Assembly (NCBI GenBank): GCA_016285075.1
Contig: JAEEQB010000012.1
Coordinates: forward strand, 27,667-91,666
DNA: 64,000 nt
From: Prevotella sp.
GTDB taxonomy: Bacteria > Bacteroidota > Bacteroidia > Bacteroidales > Bacteroidaceae
Direction: 5' to 3'
Below, piece by piece: positions 56,184 through 63,985 of the stretch. The notes beneath the pieces are model-generated. The model ran no database searches and was not told the origin of the DNA. It saw only the letters and a list, made by a program, of their open reading frames with translations. How positions within the stretch are numbered: the stretch's first letter is position 1; every line of letters begins with the position of its first letter. The translations under genes and the position numbers were made by a program.

Positions 56184-56870
56184 TTATGGCCTCACGTATT
56201 TCTTGCCACCACGGATATAGACGCCCTTCTTTTGCGGCTCGCCCTGGAGGCGACGACCCTGGAGGTCGAAGAGACTGTTAGGCTGGAGGTTTGAATCTAC
56301 AGTTACATGATTCATGTTTGCGACAACTCCACTAAACTGATTCGTTGAGAAGACATCCTGTCCTTTATCTGACACCGAAAATTGGTTGTCACCCACAGTT
56401 ATTCCGGTCTGATAAAAAAAGGATATCGGGAGAATGCCAAATCGAGAATCTCCGATTCCTTCAATCCAGGAGTATTCTCCAAAATTGAGGATTCGATACG
56501 TCTCACCACTCACTAAAACATTGTCAATGGACTTTACGCCCTCTTCTCCTATTTTCAGATTGAAGTCAAACCTTTTTACCCATTGGTTGGGGTAACTAAT
56601 ATAGTCATAATAGTTATATACATATACACATCTTGATTCTTCGCAAATATACATTCCCGTAGGACGGCTAACGCTTTCATTCGCTATACGTGCTTTTATC
56701 TGATAACAACTTTTGCCAGACACCTCCACCGGACCATCTAACGAAACAATCAGAGACCCTTGGTCATACGTCCATTGACGATCGGCATCCAACATCTTCC
56801 TGTAACCATCCTGTGCAGATGCAAGAAAGGAAAAGGAAGAAAGAAACATGATAAAGAAAATTTTTTTCAT
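56184..56870 (-). CDS. secreted protein with short C-terminal sorting-like tail, 228 aa
   Basis: ATG 56870 (MKKIFFIMFLSSFSFLASAQ) gives a signal peptide; two more residues are possible from 56876. The mature beta-rich domain has no family I recognise. The end (SLFDLQGRRLQGEPQKKGVY, then IRGGKKYVRP) resembles the short Prevotella-type C-terminal sequence found on exported proteins. It is the last gene of the C25 peptidase cluster, 75 nt after it. Confidence 0.78.
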   Translation of the reverse strand: MKKIFFIMFLSSFSFLASAQDGYRKMLDADRQWTYDQGSLIVSLDGPVEVSGKSCYQIKARIANESVSRPTGMYICEESRCVYVYNYYDYISYPNQWVKRFDFNLKIGEEGVKSIDNVLVSGETYRILNFGEYSWIEGIGDSRFGILPISFFYQTGITVGDNQFSVSDKGQDVFSTNQFSGVVANMNHVTVDSNLQPNSLFDLQGRRLQGEPQKKGVYIRGGKKYVRP

Positions 56871-56945: not shown

Positions 56946-59300
56946 TTATTGGCTTCCCATATATAAAGTAGCTCCTTGAGTTACCACAAAGTCGTTCTCA
57001 ATGTTTATGTCGTTACCAATGATCTTTGTTTGGCCACTCACAATATTTACGGCACCCTGTGGTTTGTCTGTGGTTACGTCACTACCAACGAACACATGCC
57101 TTGCCAGAATATTCCTCAAACCACTTATTGCCTCATTCTGAACATAAATGGTATCGAAATAGTTCGTAATATATGGTACATATCCTGGTTTGGTAATGCA
57201 GATGCTGCAATCTACAGCAGGTGTTACAAGTGAGACAGAAGAGACGTTATCATACACTTCATAATGGCTTGCACCATTGTCCTGAATACTCATCACACAA
57301 ATCTTACAGGAATCTACGCCAGGATTGATGACCAGTGAATCATTCCTGAAGAAACATGAAGCATTACTAAAAATCTTTGGCGTATCTATGAACACAGGCA
57401 TTTCCGGGTCTCCAAGAGGATTGACTCCATAAAGCAGCCATCCATACGACCCGAATATTGAAAAATTAAGGAGCCACAATACATTATGCTTCGCTTTCCA
57501 TGCAATCTCTCCAAAATGCTTTTGTTTATCATTGAATAGGAGCTTGTAGAATTCTCCATTAAGTTGATTGGATGTCCCTCTATATGCAATGGTATCGCTA
57601 TACCATCCTTCACGTGAACAACCAAAATAGCCAAGGATGCCACTGTTTGGATTTCTCATAAAAGCCTCGCTGAGACTGGTCGGTCTGTCAAAGGCATTAG
57701 TAAGACAGGCTTCCGTAACGATAATGGTATGTCCTGTGTTTTCAATATTCATGGCATCGGACACTGTAAAGTCAGTTCCTTCCATCTTTATAAGAGTAGT
57801 GTCGCCATGAGTGCGTATATTGACGAATGCATATCCATTATTAATTTGGGCTTGTAGGTTTGAAACATTGAAATCGTACGTAGATCCTCCAAAGTCCGTA
57901 TCTGTATCATAGAATCTTTTTTTTACACCACTCCAATATGGCAAGATATCATCGGTGTACATCCATTCACTTTTGTATTGTGTGTCACTCATGGTCACCC
58001 CATTAACAATATAATAAGGTTTTGAGGAGAGTTGCTTACCTGCAAGAAGTAACTGGCTGTTCCAATTAGTGGTGTCACTTGGATTCTCATAATCAATTAG
58101 GCGACTAATATAATTGTTAGCCTCATTGCTGTTATTAACGGACAGTCTCGTAAGTGAAACATCGGGGATTTTATCTATAATGTCATCTTCATTTTGGGAA
58201 AGATCGCCACCATACTCTCCATAGACGCCATTACCATTAGTATCCCAGTCCAAGCTGTCTAGACATGAATAGAAGAGATCTGCAGGGGTATCTTCTTCAT
58301 ATAGGTACCAAAACGAATGAAAAAATGGGTCTTTTGCATATAAATTTATATGGGCTTCTTGGGCTGGAACGACATCGACATCGCCACCTAACAACACGTA
58401 TTTCAATGGACGTGTTGAATGTGTTTTGTAGTCTTTTATTGCTTTCTTTATCCGAAGTTGCTGACGGTTCCCAGTGTACGCATCATCTATGTCTTCCACA
58501 GTAAGCACTTTTGTCCTAACACCCTTTTGGGTTTTCCAGTCTGCCAATCGTTGGAACGATGTTCTCAGGCTCTCATTTGTGATAATGAGGTATTCATAGT
58601 CATAATCTACTCCAGAACCGTTTACTTTAGCTTTCCTCACAAAGGGTTCTGCCTGTTCCATATTTCCGTAAAGTTCCTCAAGATCATCGCCATTGATAAC
58701 CATACCACGTACCATATCACGAGCCAACAGCCCTTGTTTTCCTGTATTTACATTCTTTTTTCTGCCATCAAATGTAAGCTTCGACGTCAAACGAATATCC
58801 ATTTCTTGTGTCATATAGAGTTTCTTTGTTTTAGCGTCGTAGCGAAATGGACAAACGACGAAAGAAAGGAATCTATAGCCGTCCATATGATGCGTTCCTG
58901 TATATATAACTGCTGAATCAGGATAGACTCGTGGAAGATAACCAGTCATTGATTCATTATGATGAGTCAATGAAATGTTTGTAGGAATCTCCCCTGGAAT
59001 TGGGGCTATATCGACTCCCTCTTTTATCAAGACCTCCTTTCTGTCAATAGTGAAGCCGAACAGTTCATAGTCTGGTGCGACAAGGAACTGAATACCCATA
59101 AAAGGCAACGCAGGGTCACATGGCCTTGAGACAAAGGCCGTCTTATACTTTTCAGTACTGATATACAACTCATTGTTCCTGCTCTTCATACAAAAATCCT
59201 TTTCATCAAACAGCAAATGAATTTCATTTGTTGTCTGAGCCGTAACATACCACGGAATACATAGCAATAAGAGCAGGATAATTAACAAATACTTTTTCAT
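56946..59300 (-). CDS. C25 family (gingipain-like) cysteine peptidase, 784 aa
   Basis: A signal peptide (ending YVTAQ, residue 21) is followed by a beta-rich pro-region (about 25-225) and the caspase-like C25 domain (about 230-645). The catalytic dyad is His498 (NIRTHGD) and Cys532 (VTEACLTNAFD); GILGYFGCSREGW and NPLGDPEMPVF are later family features. The C-terminal 130 residues form Ig-like or coat-hanger-like beta structure. It is shorter than PorU and lacks an obvious full T9SS tail. It is expected to cut proteins at the cell surface or outside the cell. Confidence 0.88.
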   Translation of the reverse strand: MKKYLLIILLLLLCIPWYVTAQTTNEIHLLFDEKDFCMKSRNNELYISTEKYKTAFVSRPCDPALPFMGIQFLVAPDYELFGFTIDRKEVLIKEGVDIAPIPGEIPTNISLTHHNESMTGYLPRVYPDSAVIYTGTHHMDGYRFLSFVVCPFRYDAKTKKLYMTQEMDIRLTSKLTFDGRKKNVNTGKQGLLARDMVRGMVINGDDLEELYGNMEQAEPFVRKAKVNGSGVDYDYEYLIITNESLRTSFQRLADWKTQKGVRTKVLTVEDIDDAYTGNRQQLRIKKAIKDYKTHSTRPLKYVLLGGDVDVVPAQEAHINLYAKDPFFHSFWYLYEEDTPADLFYSCLDSLDWDTNGNGVYGEYGGDLSQNEDDIIDKIPDVSLTRLSVNNSNEANNYISRLIDYENPSDTTNWNSQLLLAGKQLSSKPYYIVNGVTMSDTQYKSEWMYTDDILPYWSGVKKRFYDTDTDFGGSTYDFNVSNLQAQINNGYAFVNIRTHGDTTLIKMEGTDFTVSDAMNIENTGHTIIVTEACLTNAFDRPTSLSEAFMRNPNSGILGYFGCSREGWYSDTIAYRGTSNQLNGEFYKLLFNDKQKHFGEIAWKAKHNVLWLLNFSIFGSYGWLLYGVNPLGDPEMPVFIDTPKIFSNASCFFRNDSLVINPGVDSCKICVMSIQDNGASHYEVYDNVSSVSLVTPAVDCSICITKPGYVPYITNYFDTIYVQNEAISGLRNILARHVFVGSDVTTDKPQGAVNIVSGQTKIIGNDINIENDFVVTQGATLYMGSQ

Positions 59301-59330: not shown

Positions 59331-60422
59331 TTACTTCGACAGAATCATTCGCTTCGTATCAATCTCCCGTCCATTCACTACGAGGGAATACAAGTAGAGG
59401 CCTTCGCCGAGTTCCCATCCGTTAATAGACACGCTGGTCATTCCCAATGATACAGGCAGTTTCTTCAGCATCTTGCCACTCATATCGAAGATGCAGATGG
59501 CAGCATTCGTTGCATCGTCAGCCAAACGAAAACGAATGGTAGTTTGTTCCTTGAAAGGATTCGGCGTGTTCTGATAGAGCACATTACCTGTAGCAACATC
59601 ATTAAAATCTGCATTTTCCTCGCCAACAGAGCGTGTCTTATAATCTGAGCTGCCCTTCACAGCATCCAGTTCCTGCTTCAGTTCCTGAATACTACGCAAA
59701 AGGAGAGGCACCATTTCTATGTAGTTCACTGTCATATAGCCATCTTGTCCTTCTTTAACTAAGTCAGGATATATCTTCTGGAGTTCCAGAGCCGATACGC
59801 CGAAATGTCGTCTGTCAGATAGTTCTTTTGTACTGGGACGCTTTAAGTTGTATTCCATCACCTCCAAGTTCTGGAGTTTTGCCAACGGAGATTGTTCCTT
59901 TGCTACCGAACTCAGAGATGTTACATTCTCATTCAGCCGCATGTCCATTATACAATTTATAATGTATGCAGTAAAATCACCATCCACATAAGTCGACCCA
60001 TAGAAGAAGCCTGCATAGCCACCAGAAGGAATGGCTATTGACTCTACATTACTCCCATATATGGCAGCACCACTTGCATTATATTTAATAGTACCAATCA
60101 CTCCGTATTTTTTGCCGCTGAGTCCTATTCCATTTCCCCAAATTCCAATGGAATTTCCTGTATTTCCATTCTTTAATCCTTCAGCCAATACAGCAACTGA
60201 TCCTATCGATGTACCCGACTCATGGTTGTATGACCATATACCTTTTGAATAATTGCCAAAATCACTGTTGAAAGATGAATTTGAACTATCCCCAATATTC
60301 AATTTAGCATTAAAGTTTGTACTATTTTTAATACCTACTTCACCAGACTGATTAACTTTCAGCTGAGCTGAAGCTAAAGCGGGAACAACAAAGGCGAGCA
60401 GTAGAAACAAATCTTTTTTCAT
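59331..60422 (-). CDS. secreted protein with S74-type chaperone region and T9SS C-terminal domain, 363 aa
   Basis: After a signal peptide (ending ALASAQ) come Gly/Asn-rich beta repeats like tail-fibre or adhesin shafts (about 20-165). RHFGVSALELQKIYPDLVKE and DGYMTVNYIEMVPLLLRSIQ (about 205-245) match the S74 intramolecular chaperone seen in phage tail spikes, ending in a coiled coil. The last 80 residues (LYQNTPNPFKEQTTIRFRL ... MSGKMLKKL ... LYLYSLVVNGREI) are a type-A T9SS sorting domain. It may be a surface trimer. It lies 30 nt upstream of the C25 gene. Confidence 0.85.
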   Translation of the reverse strand: MKKDLFLLLAFVVPALASAQLKVNQSGEVGIKNSTNFNAKLNIGDSSNSSFNSDFGNYSKGIWSYNHESGTSIGSVAVLAEGLKNGNTGNSIGIWGNGIGLSGKKYGVIGTIKYNASGAAIYGSNVESIAIPSGGYAGFFYGSTYVDGDFTAYIINCIMDMRLNENVTSLSSVAKEQSPLAKLQNLEVMEYNLKRPSTKELSDRRHFGVSALELQKIYPDLVKEGQDGYMTVNYIEMVPLLLRSIQELKQELDAVKGSSDYKTRSVGEENADFNDVATGNVLYQNTPNPFKEQTTIRFRLADDATNAAICIFDMSGKMLKKLPVSLGMTSVSINGWELGEGLYLYSLVVNGREIDTKRMILSK

Positions 60423-60574: not shown

Positions 60575-61075
60575 TTATTCTTGAAGAATGACAGTATAAT
60601 CTGGGGTCATTTCCACTTCAATTGGTAGTGTTTCCACTTTCGGAAATATCTTCCAGAAATACATATCGAATGCCATGCACCAGCTCCAATCTGTTGGTTC
60701 CACATCAAGAACCAGTATATATTTCTCTTCCTGCCTGATAAGTTCCTGCTTCAGCACGTTACACTCTCTTGCGACATAACGTTGACCAATAAGGAGAGTT
60801 TTGTCTGAGAAATCAATATTGGGGAGTTCCTTTGTTCCCGAATATATGCTCTTCAGTTCTTCCATGCTATTTATTAGATAGATGTTATTGGAATTACGCT
60901 CGTTCACAAAAAACGAAGCCGATTCTTCAAGATATACAGGCAATTCGGAAGAAAGAAAAGATGTGATGGAGTCATCGGAAGCAAAAACATCCTTTGGCTC
61001 ATCAACTTCAACAGTGTCATTCCTTTCACATGAGATAACTGTTAAAAAGCATGTTAAGAATAGAATTTTTCTCAT
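60575..61075 (-). CDS. lipoprotein of unknown function, 166 aa
   Basis: MRKILFLTCFLTVISC is a short lipoprotein signal with lipobox TVISC. The mature part has an acidic linker (NDTVEVDEPKDVFASDDSIT) and then a mixed alpha/beta domain (NIDFSDKTLLIGQRYVA, KYILVLDVEPTDWSW). I recognise no family. It sits between the DUF3244 gene and the S74/T9SS gene in the C25 cluster, with hairpins in both flanking gaps. Confidence 0.78.
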   Translation of the reverse strand: MRKILFLTCFLTVISCERNDTVEVDEPKDVFASDDSITSFLSSELPVYLEESASFFVNERNSNNIYLINSMEELKSIYSGTKELPNIDFSDKTLLIGQRYVARECNVLKQELIRQEEKYILVLDVEPTDWSWCMAFDMYFWKIFPKVETLPIEVEMTPDYTVILQE

Positions 61076-61172: not shown

Positions 61173-61547
61173 TTACAGCGTGATATAGCCATAGAAGAGC
61201 AAACTGCCAGAGATTAGCTCTATGCGGTAAGTGCCGCTGAGCGTGGTGGGTAGCCAGACCTGGGTCTGCAACGAGGGAACGACAACCATATAGACCACGT
61301 TGTTCGAAGTATCAACAATGCGGAGCAAATAGTCGACATGGGTGCCGTGGAAATCCAAAAGGTAGCCATTCTGCCATAGATGGGGCATTAGGATGGGTGT
61401 CTTTGGATTGCCTGGTGTATCAGGAGTAGGATCTCCCCAATCAATACTGAATTCAATTTCTTCCTCCTCTGGTTCTTGCGCATACGTAGGAATGCCCAAG
61501 AAAAGAGAACTAAATAATAATAACGTAAGTAATAATTTTTTTCTCAT
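61173..61547 (-). CDS. DUF3244-like small secreted protein, 124 aa
   Basis: ATG 61547 (MRKKLLLTLLLFSSLFLGIP) gives a signal peptide ending at TYAQ; the ORF track start lies upstream, near the promoter. A Glu-rich stretch (EPEEEEIEFSIDWGDPTPDT) leads to a beta-sandwich with HVDYLLRIVDTSNNVVYMVV and SGTYRIELISG, the DUF3244 pattern of Bacteroidales exported proteins. It is the first gene of the C25 cluster. Confidence 0.75.
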   Translation of the reverse strand: MRKKLLLTLLLFSSLFLGIPTYAQEPEEEEIEFSIDWGDPTPDTPGNPKTPILMPHLWQNGYLLDFHGTHVDYLLRIVDTSNNVVYMVVVPSLQTQVWLPTTLSGTYRIELISGSLLFYGYITL

Positions 61548-61595
61548 AGTTGTTAATGTTCTTGTTTGTAAATAACCAGAATTGCAATTCGGCTG

Positions 61596-61627
61596 CAAAT
61601 ATATACATTAACAAATAAAGCATCAAG
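61596..61627 (-). promoter_or_regulatory. probable promoter of the C25 cluster
   Basis: On the minus strand TATATTTG (plus CAAATATA, 61596-61603) fits TAnnTTTG. At the -33 position only CTTG (plus CAAG, 61624-61627) is found, 20 nt away, so the promoter may need an activator. Confidence 0.55.
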
Positions 61628-61643
61628 AAAAAAGTGAGCTAAG

Positions 61644-61718
61644 AATTTACCAAGAATTTACCACAACAGAAAACCCGCTTAAAACGAGCGGGTTATGATA
61701 ATTTACCATAAATTTACT
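61644..61718. promoter_or_regulatory. two pairs of 11-bp-spaced AATTTACC direct repeats, candidate activator sites
   Basis: AATTTACC occurs at 61644 and 61655, and again at 61700 (AATTTACC) and 61711 (AATTTACT). Within each pair the spacing is exactly 11 bp, about one helical turn. The first pair ends 17 nt from the presumed -33 of the C25 cluster and the second lies across the regulator gene's terminator hairpin. This layout is typical of dimeric activator sites with direct-repeat half-sites. Confidence 0.65.
61672..61694 (-). terminator. hairpin after the TPR-HTH regulator gene
   Basis: AACCCGCT and AGCGGGTT form an 8-bp stem with a 7-nt loop, 33 nt after the regulator's stop. On the minus strand the stem is followed by TTTTCTG, a weak U tract. 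Confidence 0.6.
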
Positions 61719-61726
61719 CCTTGGAG

Positions 61727-63403
61727 TTACAATGGTGATTGCTCGTGAATCGACCTCAACAGCCGGTCGAAATCCTTACTGTCACCATCGCCTTTAAACA
61801 GTTTTGTGTGAAGGCGCTTGCGGGTTTTAGTCACCGTTGCTTCATCTATCCCTAAGATTCCGGCGCAAGATTTAACGGAGATGTAGAGTCGGGTAAGAAG
61901 ACAGATATGGTATTCATTGTCAGTCAAAGAGGTCTTCTGTTCTGTTATGAAATGATAGAAGTTGGGAAACTCTTCCTTAAGCAATTCGTGGACATTCTGC
62001 CAATCTCCTTCCGTCATTTGTATACCGCGTCTAGCCTTTTTTGCGAATACCTGATATTTGCTGTTTTCATTAATGCGTGTCAGTTCGTCTTTGAAGGCTT
62101 TGCCGGAAAGCGTTTCTTTCAGGTATTCGTATTTAGTCAAAGCACTCTGCAAGTCAGCTATTTCTGCAGTCTTTTTTGTAATCAGCTCGTCAAGGTTGGC
62201 ATCATTCGCACGCAAGATCTCCAACTCTTCTTGTGCTTTCTTAAGGTGGGACTGGAGCTCAAGGTATCGGGCTGTTTCAGCCTTACGCTTTTTCCGCTGT
62301 AAATGATACATCACCGCAATGGCGCCAGAGACAATCAGCAGTAATAAGGCAATCACACTGACAATAAGTAGCCGGATGGTTTGCATGTCAGCTTTGTTCT
62401 TTTCTTGCTGCGCTATCTCTTGCTGGCTGCTATAGTCGTACATGGCCTTGGCCTGTTCAACCTCGTGTGTAGTCATCTGGACAAAGCAAGAATCGTTCAT
62501 GTCGTATGCATAGAGGGCATACTTGGCGGCAGAGTCCGACATGTGCTTTTGTTGGTATAGCAGGGCAAGGCCTCTTGATCCATAATTCTGATTGTTAAAG
62601 TCTCGTCCAGTACGCAGTTCTTTGCGAAAGAAGAATTCTGAAGAGTCCAGTTGTTGTTCTCTCAAATAATAAAGACCTTTAAAGAAATAATAGACTTCTC
62701 GACCCGCCGAGATATTCATTGCATCATCAAAATAGCCCGAATAGAGTTCGTGCTCTATCATATATGGTAAGGCCTTGTCATCTTCACCTTTATCAATGAG
62801 TGTTTTTGCAAGAGCTCCTGAATAGCCTGCTGCAACCTTATTATAATTATATGCTTTCATTTGACTAATAGCATCCATATAAATAAAGATTGCAGAATCT
62901 TTCATTTGTAGCTGTTCGTAGGCAGATGCTTTCATGGCATAACACTGTAAAGCTGCCAAAGTGTCGTTTTCTCGCCATGCATAAGATGATGCAAGATCCT
63001 CATATTCCAGCTGGTTTCGATACAGACCCTGCTGATAGAAGATAGTAGCGCTTTGCCCATACACTCGGCTGAGTTGGGCGAAGTCGCAGTCGGGGCTAAG
63101 TGTGTCGGCACGGGTGATGGCCTCCTGGTAGCAGTGGAGGGCCATGGGAGCCTCGCGCATATCGGCGTAGCAGCGGCCCAAGAGGTAGTGGGCCAGCAGC
63201 TGGTCGTTGGGTGTGCCGTGGCTGTCGAAATAATCAGCAAGGGTCTGTGCCTCGTTGCGCTCCTTGACGGTGAGCACGGAGTCGGCACGGTTCAGCTCGT
63301 TCAGCGCATCAAGCCGCTGGCGCATCTCGCTGTACTGACCGCCGCCTGAACAGGAGGCCAGCGTGATCAGTATCAGGAGCACTGTGTATGAGATTCTTTG
63401 CAT
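61727..63403 (-). CDS. membrane-spanning TPR regulator with C-terminal HTH, 558 aa
   Basis: The N-terminus has a lipoprotein-like signal (LLILITLASC, Cys18). Residues 40-320 are TPR-like helical repeats (ALHCYQEAI, DDKALPYMIEHELYSG). A single membrane helix lies at about 335-360 (IRLLIVSVIALLLLIVSGAI), then a long coiled coil (KAQEELEILRANDANLDELI). The end (NEYHICLLTRLYISVKSCAG, then ILGIDEATVTKTRKRLH) is a LuxR-like HTH. It probably senses an envelope signal through the TPRs and binds DNA in the cytoplasm. The adjacent C25 cluster is the obvious target. Confidence 0.85.
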   Translation of the reverse strand: MQRISYTVLLILITLASCSGGGQYSEMRQRLDALNELNRADSVLTVKERNEAQTLADYFDSHGTPNDQLLAHYLLGRCYADMREAPMALHCYQEAITRADTLSPDCDFAQLSRVYGQSATIFYQQGLYRNQLEYEDLASSYAWRENDTLAALQCYAMKASAYEQLQMKDSAIFIYMDAISQMKAYNYNKVAAGYSGALAKTLIDKGEDDKALPYMIEHELYSGYFDDAMNISAGREVYYFFKGLYYLREQQLDSSEFFFRKELRTGRDFNNQNYGSRGLALLYQQKHMSDSAAKYALYAYDMNDSCFVQMTTHEVEQAKAMYDYSSQQEIAQQEKNKADMQTIRLLIVSVIALLLLIVSGAIAVMYHLQRKKRKAETARYLELQSHLKKAQEELEILRANDANLDELITKKTAEIADLQSALTKYEYLKETLSGKAFKDELTRINENSKYQVFAKKARRGIQMTEGDWQNVHELLKEEFPNFYHFITEQKTSLTDNEYHICLLTRLYISVKSCAGILGIDEATVTKTRKRLHTKLFKGDGDSKDFDRLLRSIHEQSPL

Positions 63404-63517: not shown

Positions 63518-63985
63518 TTAATCTGACCCCCTAACGCTCCGAAGGGGCAACAGCAGTAAGCCCGAGGCATTGCCCTGGGTGATAGGTATGGCGCGGATAA
63601 CGTCCTGCGAGGGCAATACATTCTCAATATACGATTTAATATGCTTGGCAAATTCGCCCCTGAAGAGCCTTTTTACAGGAACCCTTTGCTTACGGAAGAA
63701 ACTGTCTGCATCTCCAGAGATAATAGAGTCCAGCATGACAATGGCTCTTTTGTCTCGTTGATAATGCCTGTAGGCAATTCATTTGCCCACATTTATTGTG
63801 GATAGGTAACTGACACCAACATCTGGAGTGTAGTCACTCAGATGCTCTTTTTCCATGTAGGAAACGAGGTGGTAGACACTCGTCATTAGCCTGTTTTGGG
63901 AGTCTCCAGACACCTCGTAACCTGACAAGGATTGACGAACCTTATTAAAAAGGTCATCTCGTGAAACCTTGATAAATTTACCCAT
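63518..63985 (-). pseudogene. broken tyrosine-recombinase-like gene (N-terminal part)
   Basis: Two track ORFs (63779-63985 and 63518-63736) are in one frame, separated by a single TGA at 63779-63781 and 14 further codons (IAYRHYQRDKRAIV) without another stop. The joined product MGKFIKVSRDDLF ... LMTSVYHLVSYMEKEHLSDY ... MLDSIISGDADSFFRKQRV resembles the core-binding domain of Bacteroidota site-specific recombinases; this is from memory of the pattern and is not certain. No catalytic domain follows: the frame runs into a GC-rich triple-hairpin repeat and stops. Both nonsense mutation and truncation mark it as a pseudogene. Confidence 0.6.
63533..63616. repeat. GC-rich triple-hairpin repeat, copy 2 (diverged)
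   Basis: The order of blocks (GAAGGGGC, then CCCGAGGCATTGCCCTGGGT, then CGTCCTGCGAGGGC) matches the element at 55808-55890, with several changes that weaken the stems. It forms the 3' end of the broken recombinase-like gene, as if it had inserted there or replaced the catalytic domain. Confidence 0.65.

Follow-up and report, generated by a model that had tools for sequence, protein, structure and literature searches.

The paired repeats lying between a membrane regulator gene and a secreted-protease operon of Prevotella sp. would, in the reading that we favour at a probability of roughly 85%, be the private operator of that regulator, which would activate the neighbouring set of secreted proteins. 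The regulator itself very probably belongs to a large gut and rumen bacterial family, whose members each have a repeat word of their own, placed at a constant spacing from the promoter that serves a set of secreted proteases.

Regulator gene, repeats and operon in the window

In the window (the whole stretch of 64,000 nucleotides that was analysed), the 8-bp word AATTTACC occurs exactly at 61644, 61655 and 61700, while a fourth copy at 61711, AATTTACT, has one mismatch to it. The step within each pair is 11 bp. The preliminary description had announced two pairs of the word at exactly this spacing; the spacing and the first pair are indeed exact, and the second pair carries the mismatch. All the features described here are on the minus strand. 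Read in that direction, the regulator stop codon is followed after 8 nt by the putative distal operator pair (AGTAAATT-N3-GGTAAATT, 61700..61718), then by a terminator-like hairpin of the regulator gene (61672..61694, RNA fold -12.4 kcal/mol, z -3.35), which thus sits between the two pairs, and by the putative proximal pair (GGTAAATT-N3-GGTAAATT, 61644..61662). After a further 16 nt comes the predicted operon promoter (61596..61627), made of a CTTG -33 box at 61624-61627, a 20-nt spacer and the -7 box TATATTTG at 61596-61603, and then the DUF3244-like gene. Family-wide, a TTG likewise precedes the -7 box by 20 nt. The proximal pair had been placed 17 nt upstream of the -33 box: its position stands, and the distance to CTTG is 16 nt. 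From the end of this pair to the -7 box there are 40 nt, and with the -7 box taken at -12 to -5 the centre of the operator is estimated at about -62. An Rfam search of the repeat and terminator region gave no match.

Judged from the window alone, the repeat pairs are weak evidence and only mildly surprising, as two sites were found at three mismatches or fewer against 0.45 expected, and 6 of 100 window shuffles were equally good; it is the relatives that make them compelling. In the whole 4.33-Mb genome, these two pairs are the only sites with zero or one mismatch. Matches with two mismatches on contigs C6, C45 and C91 have no regulator of the family alongside and were not counted. A single unpaired AATTTACC at 63975-63982, at the end of the window and by the start of another gene, was taken as chance.

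The regulator gene (61727..63403) encodes 558 amino acids. Its product has a lipoprotein-type signal peptide with Cys18 (this lipobox cysteine is conserved in at least 90% of the regulator family), a TPR domain, with TPR matches in Pfam, at about residues 20-320, a transmembrane segment at about 337-365, a coiled coil extending to about 446 and a C-terminal helix-turn-helix (HTH). In the AlphaFold2 model (pLDDT 85), one long helix runs from 325 to 446 with its hydrophobic part at 337-365, and the HTH occupies 495-536, with helices at 495-505, 510-517 and 521-536. The claim that the gene directly upstream of the operon encodes a TPR protein with one membrane helix and an HTH was therefore borne out by the model. 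Pfam gave no HTH match in this protein, and a PDB search with the full-length regulator matched TPR and coiled-coil segments only. When the HTH was modelled separately (pLDDT 93), its nearest PDB structures were of the LuxR/NarL type (3clo, VraR, LiaR, DosR and NarL), with Foldseek probabilities of 0.9-0.99 and E values of at least 0.37, none of them significant. The predicted topology fits the layout of membrane one-component regulators, with an external sensor, a single membrane segment and a cytoplasmic DNA-binding domain.

The operon begins with a secreted DUF3244-like protein of 124 amino acids (61173..61547), whose PDB relatives are 4g5a and 3d33 and whose match to PF11589 (E 0.03, 14.7 bits) lies below the gathering cut-off of 25 bits. 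Among its counterparts in the family, 35 of 46 match PF11589 at E<0.1, the best at 5.9e-7. There follow a lipoprotein with no family match (60575..61075), an S74 (endosialidase chaperone) protein with a T9SS sorting tail (59331..60422), a gingipain-type C25 peptidase of 784 amino acids (56946..59300, E 2.7e-61) and a secreted protein (56184..56870) with a short C-terminal LQGRRLQGEPQKKGVYIRGGKKYVRP tail common to other cassettes. The Peptidase_C25 domain scores 208 bits against a cut-off of 23, and the Por_Secre_tail of the S74 protein 34.1 bits against a cut-off of 27, which by that measure makes it T9SS type A cargo. The arrangement first proposed, with the regulator directly upstream of a DUF3244, lipoprotein, S74-T9SS and C25 set, is thus confirmed, with the caveat that the window DUF3244 protein falls below the Pfam cut-off.

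In the family loci, the first gene of a cassette usually encodes a DUF3244-like, secreted protein of about 118 amino acids. Further along, secreted peptidases from unrelated families (S8, C25, C10, C1 and trypsin-like) are often encoded, and S74 and T9SS-tail proteins occur along with them; among the scanned cassette genes, three code for C10 peptidases. In the genome of the window, three of the five C25 genes are within such cassettes. A fourth non-PorU C25 gene (L344:5707-7029, G000:C63) has no regulator of the family nearby.

A conserved layout behind related regulators

Of 30 genera of the family, 19 yielded relatives of the regulator. A set of 109 nonredundant regulators was drawn from 150 genomes belonging to the genus, together with a scan of named genomes that were mostly of rumen origin (Prevotella, Xylanibacter and other Prevotellaceae); behind 92 of these regulators the gap was clean. 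Exact tandem repeats of at least 8 nt with a period of 9-12 occur in 44 of these 92 gaps after the regulator stop, against 2.2 expected from dinucleotide shuffles (sd 1.3, maximum 5, 30 rounds), about half of the gaps being without an exact 8-nt repeat. At period 11 alone, there are 28 such gaps against 0.6 in shuffles. When the 300 bp before each regulator gene were analysed, no such peak was seen. The distance from the repeat end to the -7 box TAnnTTTG was 38-43 nt without any fitting, and a registered fit placed an operator in 75 of 93 loci, with the consensus [AGT][GC]TnAAnT and a distance of exactly 40 nt in 67 of the 75; the same fit with the upstream part shuffled gave 0-11 loci.

The layout was found again in loci that had played no part in its definition. 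Of 48 more distant loci, unseen before and including other genera, 25 had the repeats (0.78 expected), as did 12 of 28 further unseen loci; behind the regulators of 20 regions, mostly outside the genus, about half had tandem 11-bp repeats. A second pair built from the locus's own word was found in 30% of loci, compared with 3.6% when the words of other loci were used, and in 14 of 20 cases it lay 55-59 bp further upstream than the proximal pair, as in the window.

That the repeats are chance A+T-rich sequence, or that the terminator and replication slippage produced them as a by-product, might have been entertained on the window statistic, which is weak. However, the roughly 20-fold enrichment over shuffles, exceeding 30-fold in the unseen set, together with the sharp 11-bp peak and the fixed place, refutes this at the level of the family, and we give it almost no weight. 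The preliminary description had made its proposal depend on conservation of the repeats ahead of related operons. What is conserved there is the layout and not the exact word AATTTACC; because the word changes and the layout is kept, a literal search for AATTTACC would have led to a wrong rejection.

Two loci of the survey deserve mention in their own right. In the gap behind one regulator (L331, G288:C9), AGTACGCA pairs and TTGCGTACT pairs are oppositely oriented, in an inverted arrangement. Another cassette (L150) comes from a metagenome bin labelled Erysipelothrix rhusiopathiae and resembles a Prevotella contig; the bin is probably mislabelled or mixed.

Repeat words that change with the DNA-binding domain

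The word differs between loci, and also from cassette to cassette within one genome. The genome of the window holds about ten relatives of the regulator. With the same layout as in the window, the word is TGCTAATT at 12 bp behind the paralogues on contigs C50 and C44, GGTGAAAT at 10 and 11 bp on C43, TTAAGAAAT at 11 bp on C101 and CTTGCGTAC at 11 bp on C76. The regulators on C91, C54 and C88 have no clear operator behind them. Three of the four words tested were found only beside their own regulator in the 4.33-Mb genome, the GGTGAAAT and TTAAGAAAT pairs having one site each. Pairs of TGCTAATT, one of several words whose register is uncertain, occur on C50, on C44 and at a third site without a regulator, on C82. 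Since each paralogue has its own word, we propose that there would be no cross-talk between the cassettes of one genome.

Several features of these paralogues are recorded here as observations. At the third site (L343:7999-8058, G000:C82:62998-63057), two TGCTAATT pairs form an inverted repeat around a hairpin with no family regulator nearby; they may be left over from a lost cassette, or may serve the C50 regulator as a second target. Three regulator copies are broken (L026, L028 and L020, that is G000:C44, C76 and C50): the C44 copy has in-frame stops, with the TGCTAATT operator still behind it, the C76 copy retains the first ~90 residues only, and in C50 a stop separates the sensor half from the HTH half. 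Downstream of the C91 paralogue (L022:10903-12558) there is no tandem operator, and about three copies of a 22-bp unit, CGCCTATACCCAAACGATTGAA, stand in its place. At an intergenic position with no family regulator beside it (L038:7760-7878, G000:C6:51759-51877), the pairs AAGTTACC/AAGTTACC and AAGTTACC/AAATTACC lie 100 bp apart.

Across 72 loci, word distance followed HTH distance when TPR distance was controlled for (partial Mantel 0.31, p=0.0005), and did not follow TPR distance when HTH distance was controlled for (0.03, p=0.30). The most informative residue-base pair by mutual information joined residue 526 to word base 2: with Lys or Arg at 526, base 2 is G in 40 of 40 cases, and with Gln it is C in 17 of 20 (p=1.3e-11; p=1.2e-5 after thinning to representatives with less than 50% HTH identity). 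In the HTH tree of 178 branches, four changes are shared between the 8 changes of residue 526 and the 10 of base 2 (p=0.0003). As the first validation set held no Gln regulators, a second one was collected; in the held-out loci, with base 2 left out of operator scoring, Gln went with C in 3 of 3 (the only Gln regulators in that set) and Lys or Arg with G in 12 of 13 (p=0.0018). The rule has 6 exceptions in 90 and does not reach distant N-type HTHs. Covariation puts residues 519-526 at the word; in the window, the codons for recognition-helix residues ~520-526 lie at 61824..61844, and residue 526 is Lys. In the model, residue 526 falls in the third HTH helix, at the position that adjoins Lys188, a base-contacting residue, in the NarL-DNA structure. 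The signals linking residue 322 to base 3, and residues 105, 253 and 88 to base 6, came from near-invariant columns (MI ~0.15) and were discarded.

A word that changes together with the HTH is stronger evidence that the neighbouring regulator binds it than a fixed word would be. Binding of the repeats by another factor, such as a global regulator, with the adjacent regulator being incidental, gains some room from the fact that the pairing of regulator and repeats is one that we infer, yet a shared global factor would need one word, while the observed word varies between the cassettes of one genome, tracks the adjacent HTH and has a base predicted in unseen loci by one recognition-helix residue. 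We regard such a factor as very unlikely.

Adjacency raises a different question. Comparison of the window cassette with those on C50 and C101 shows 80-85% DNA identity that starts about 210 nt ahead of the regulator gene and runs to about codon 335; identity resumes, at about 80%, from a point inside the DUF3244 gene. The approximate 'specificity island' between them (61470..62396), which comprises the transmembrane segment, coiled coil, HTH, operators, promoter and signal peptide, has no detectable DNA identity to either cassette. Among the paralogous cassettes of this genome, the sensor and the target are kept, and the predicted DNA-binding specificity and operator differ jointly. Because the HTH end of the gene and the operator are physically adjacent, co-inheritance could mimic their co-evolution, and the diverged island, covering both, is what would be expected if the two were matched merely as neighbouring DNA inherited or recombined in one block, with no functional coupling. 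However, flanking gap sequence follows HTH distance far less closely than the word does (0.10, 0.07 and 0.00), although the operator spacer and flanks are equally close, and at HTH distances of 0.35-0.50 the word differs at 14% of positions and the spacer at 51%, so that similar HTHs keep the word over a spacer diverged at half of its positions. Plain co-inheritance is thus insufficient; these flank controls argue against it as the whole explanation, and there is little chance that it accounts for the match.

The proposal that the neighbouring membrane regulator acts through the repeats is therefore supported by the tandem repeats of about 11 bp after its stop codon, by their place 40 nt before the -7 box and by the tracking of the HTH by the word. 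The regulator would be anchored in the inner membrane, its lipidated TPR sensor facing the periplasm and its LuxR/NarL-like HTH the cytoplasm. The tandem 8-bp units may be bound by at least two HTH domains of a membrane-tethered dimer or oligomer; being one helical turn apart, these units would present the same DNA face about 16 bp upstream of the weak -33 box, and the distal pair, about 56 bp further upstream, would be a second binding site. The bound regulator may then recruit RNA polymerase for expression of the DUF3244 protein and the secreted set, often including a protease. Binding, activation, topology and signal are in this scheme what we infer.

The regulator could also bind the repeats and repress the operon, releasing it upon a signal. 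Nothing in the repeats contradicts this, and the distal pair could support looping. For a repressor site, however, one would expect overlap with the promoter. The operator stops short of the -33 box, keeps a constant 40 nt to the -7 box and is centred at about -62, the usual place of an activator. Many of the -33 boxes depart from TTTG (27 of 75 operon promoters have it), but the regulator-gene promoters are little better (25 of 52), so that a weak -33 box is not clear-cut proof of activation. We consider repression unlikely, and activation by the adjacent regulator remains the reading that we prefer.

Known systems and a possible exchange of specificity

Membrane one-component regulators and private operators are already known kinds. 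ToxR and CadC have an external sensor, an internal DNA-binding domain, one membrane span and an adjacent target operon. The window regulator shares this plan, but in reverse order (sensor N-terminal, HTH C-terminal), with a lipoprotein signal and with an unrelated sensor and HTH. In the LuxR/NarL group, half sites usually lie about one turn apart, as direct or inverted repeats. The predicted HTH fold and helix order resemble those of LuxR/NarL/GerE-type domains (NarL, VraR, LiaR, DosR and 3clo), but there is no receiver domain, the HTH being fused to a transmembrane segment and a periplasmic TPR sensor.

In lambdoid phage immunity regions, the repressor and its operators are exchanged as a block. 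The likeness is an analogy: binding specificity and operators vary together among otherwise similar relatives, giving insulation. The system described here differs in being chromosomal, membrane-bound and probably activating, with operators that are tandem and not palindromic. We lean, with some reserve, towards the view that the regulator family expanded in a comparable manner, by swapping the specificity island as a whole (HTH and promoter along with the matching operators) while the sensor and target blocks on either side were conserved, which would yield many insulated circuits per genome and a readable code (526 for base 2; 519-523 for bases 4 and 7), resembling immunity regions but for membrane-anchored activators.

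The closest described neighbourhood is in B. thetaiotaomicron, where BT_3442 (TPR) is accompanied by BT_3441 (DUF3244, PDB 3d33) and the MACPF proteins BT_3439 and BT_3437 (PMC2954219). The window regulator matches the BT_3442 family (NF053779) over residues 56-535 with E 3.5e-8; at 32.6 bits against an equivalog cut-off of 940, it is a distant relative and not a member. As in the window, a TPR protein in that family is encoded directly upstream of a DUF3244 gene and secreted effectors, and in most loci, the window included, the gene next to the regulator is DUF3244-like. The published account of BT_3442 goes no further than a TPR protein encoded in a putative operon; it assigns no regulator role to the protein and mentions no repeats (PMC2954219). 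The same species has C10 peptidase clusters, btpB, btpC and btpZ, with small candidate inhibitors, btiZ and btiB. BT2221 (btiZ), annotated DUF3244 (PMC10434189), was put forward as an inhibitor of the C10 protease encoded next to it; the gap between this gene and the secreted protease gene downstream is 14 bp (PMC3462683). The likeness is a DUF3244 gene by a secreted protease; no regulator or operator is described for these clusters, and their peptidase is C10 where that of the window is C25.

In the literature searched, outside which most subscription journals lie, we found no description of the family as regulators or of its repeats. Within that literature, the family, its fixed geometry, the joint variation of HTH and operator and the residue-base rule appear undescribed.

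Bacteroidota regulators are poorly connected to their targets, and here well over a hundred loci allow putative operator, promoter and regulator to be read side by side, so that matching a regulator to its target may be possible by reading DNA alone. The natural variation would amount to a specificity code, already at hand, for tandem operators spaced one turn apart, and to a collection of regulator-promoter pairs, possibly orthogonal, for gut bacteria. It may also offer a first functional handle on DUF3244 proteins, and one on the control of secreted proteases of several unrelated families in rumen and gut Prevotella.
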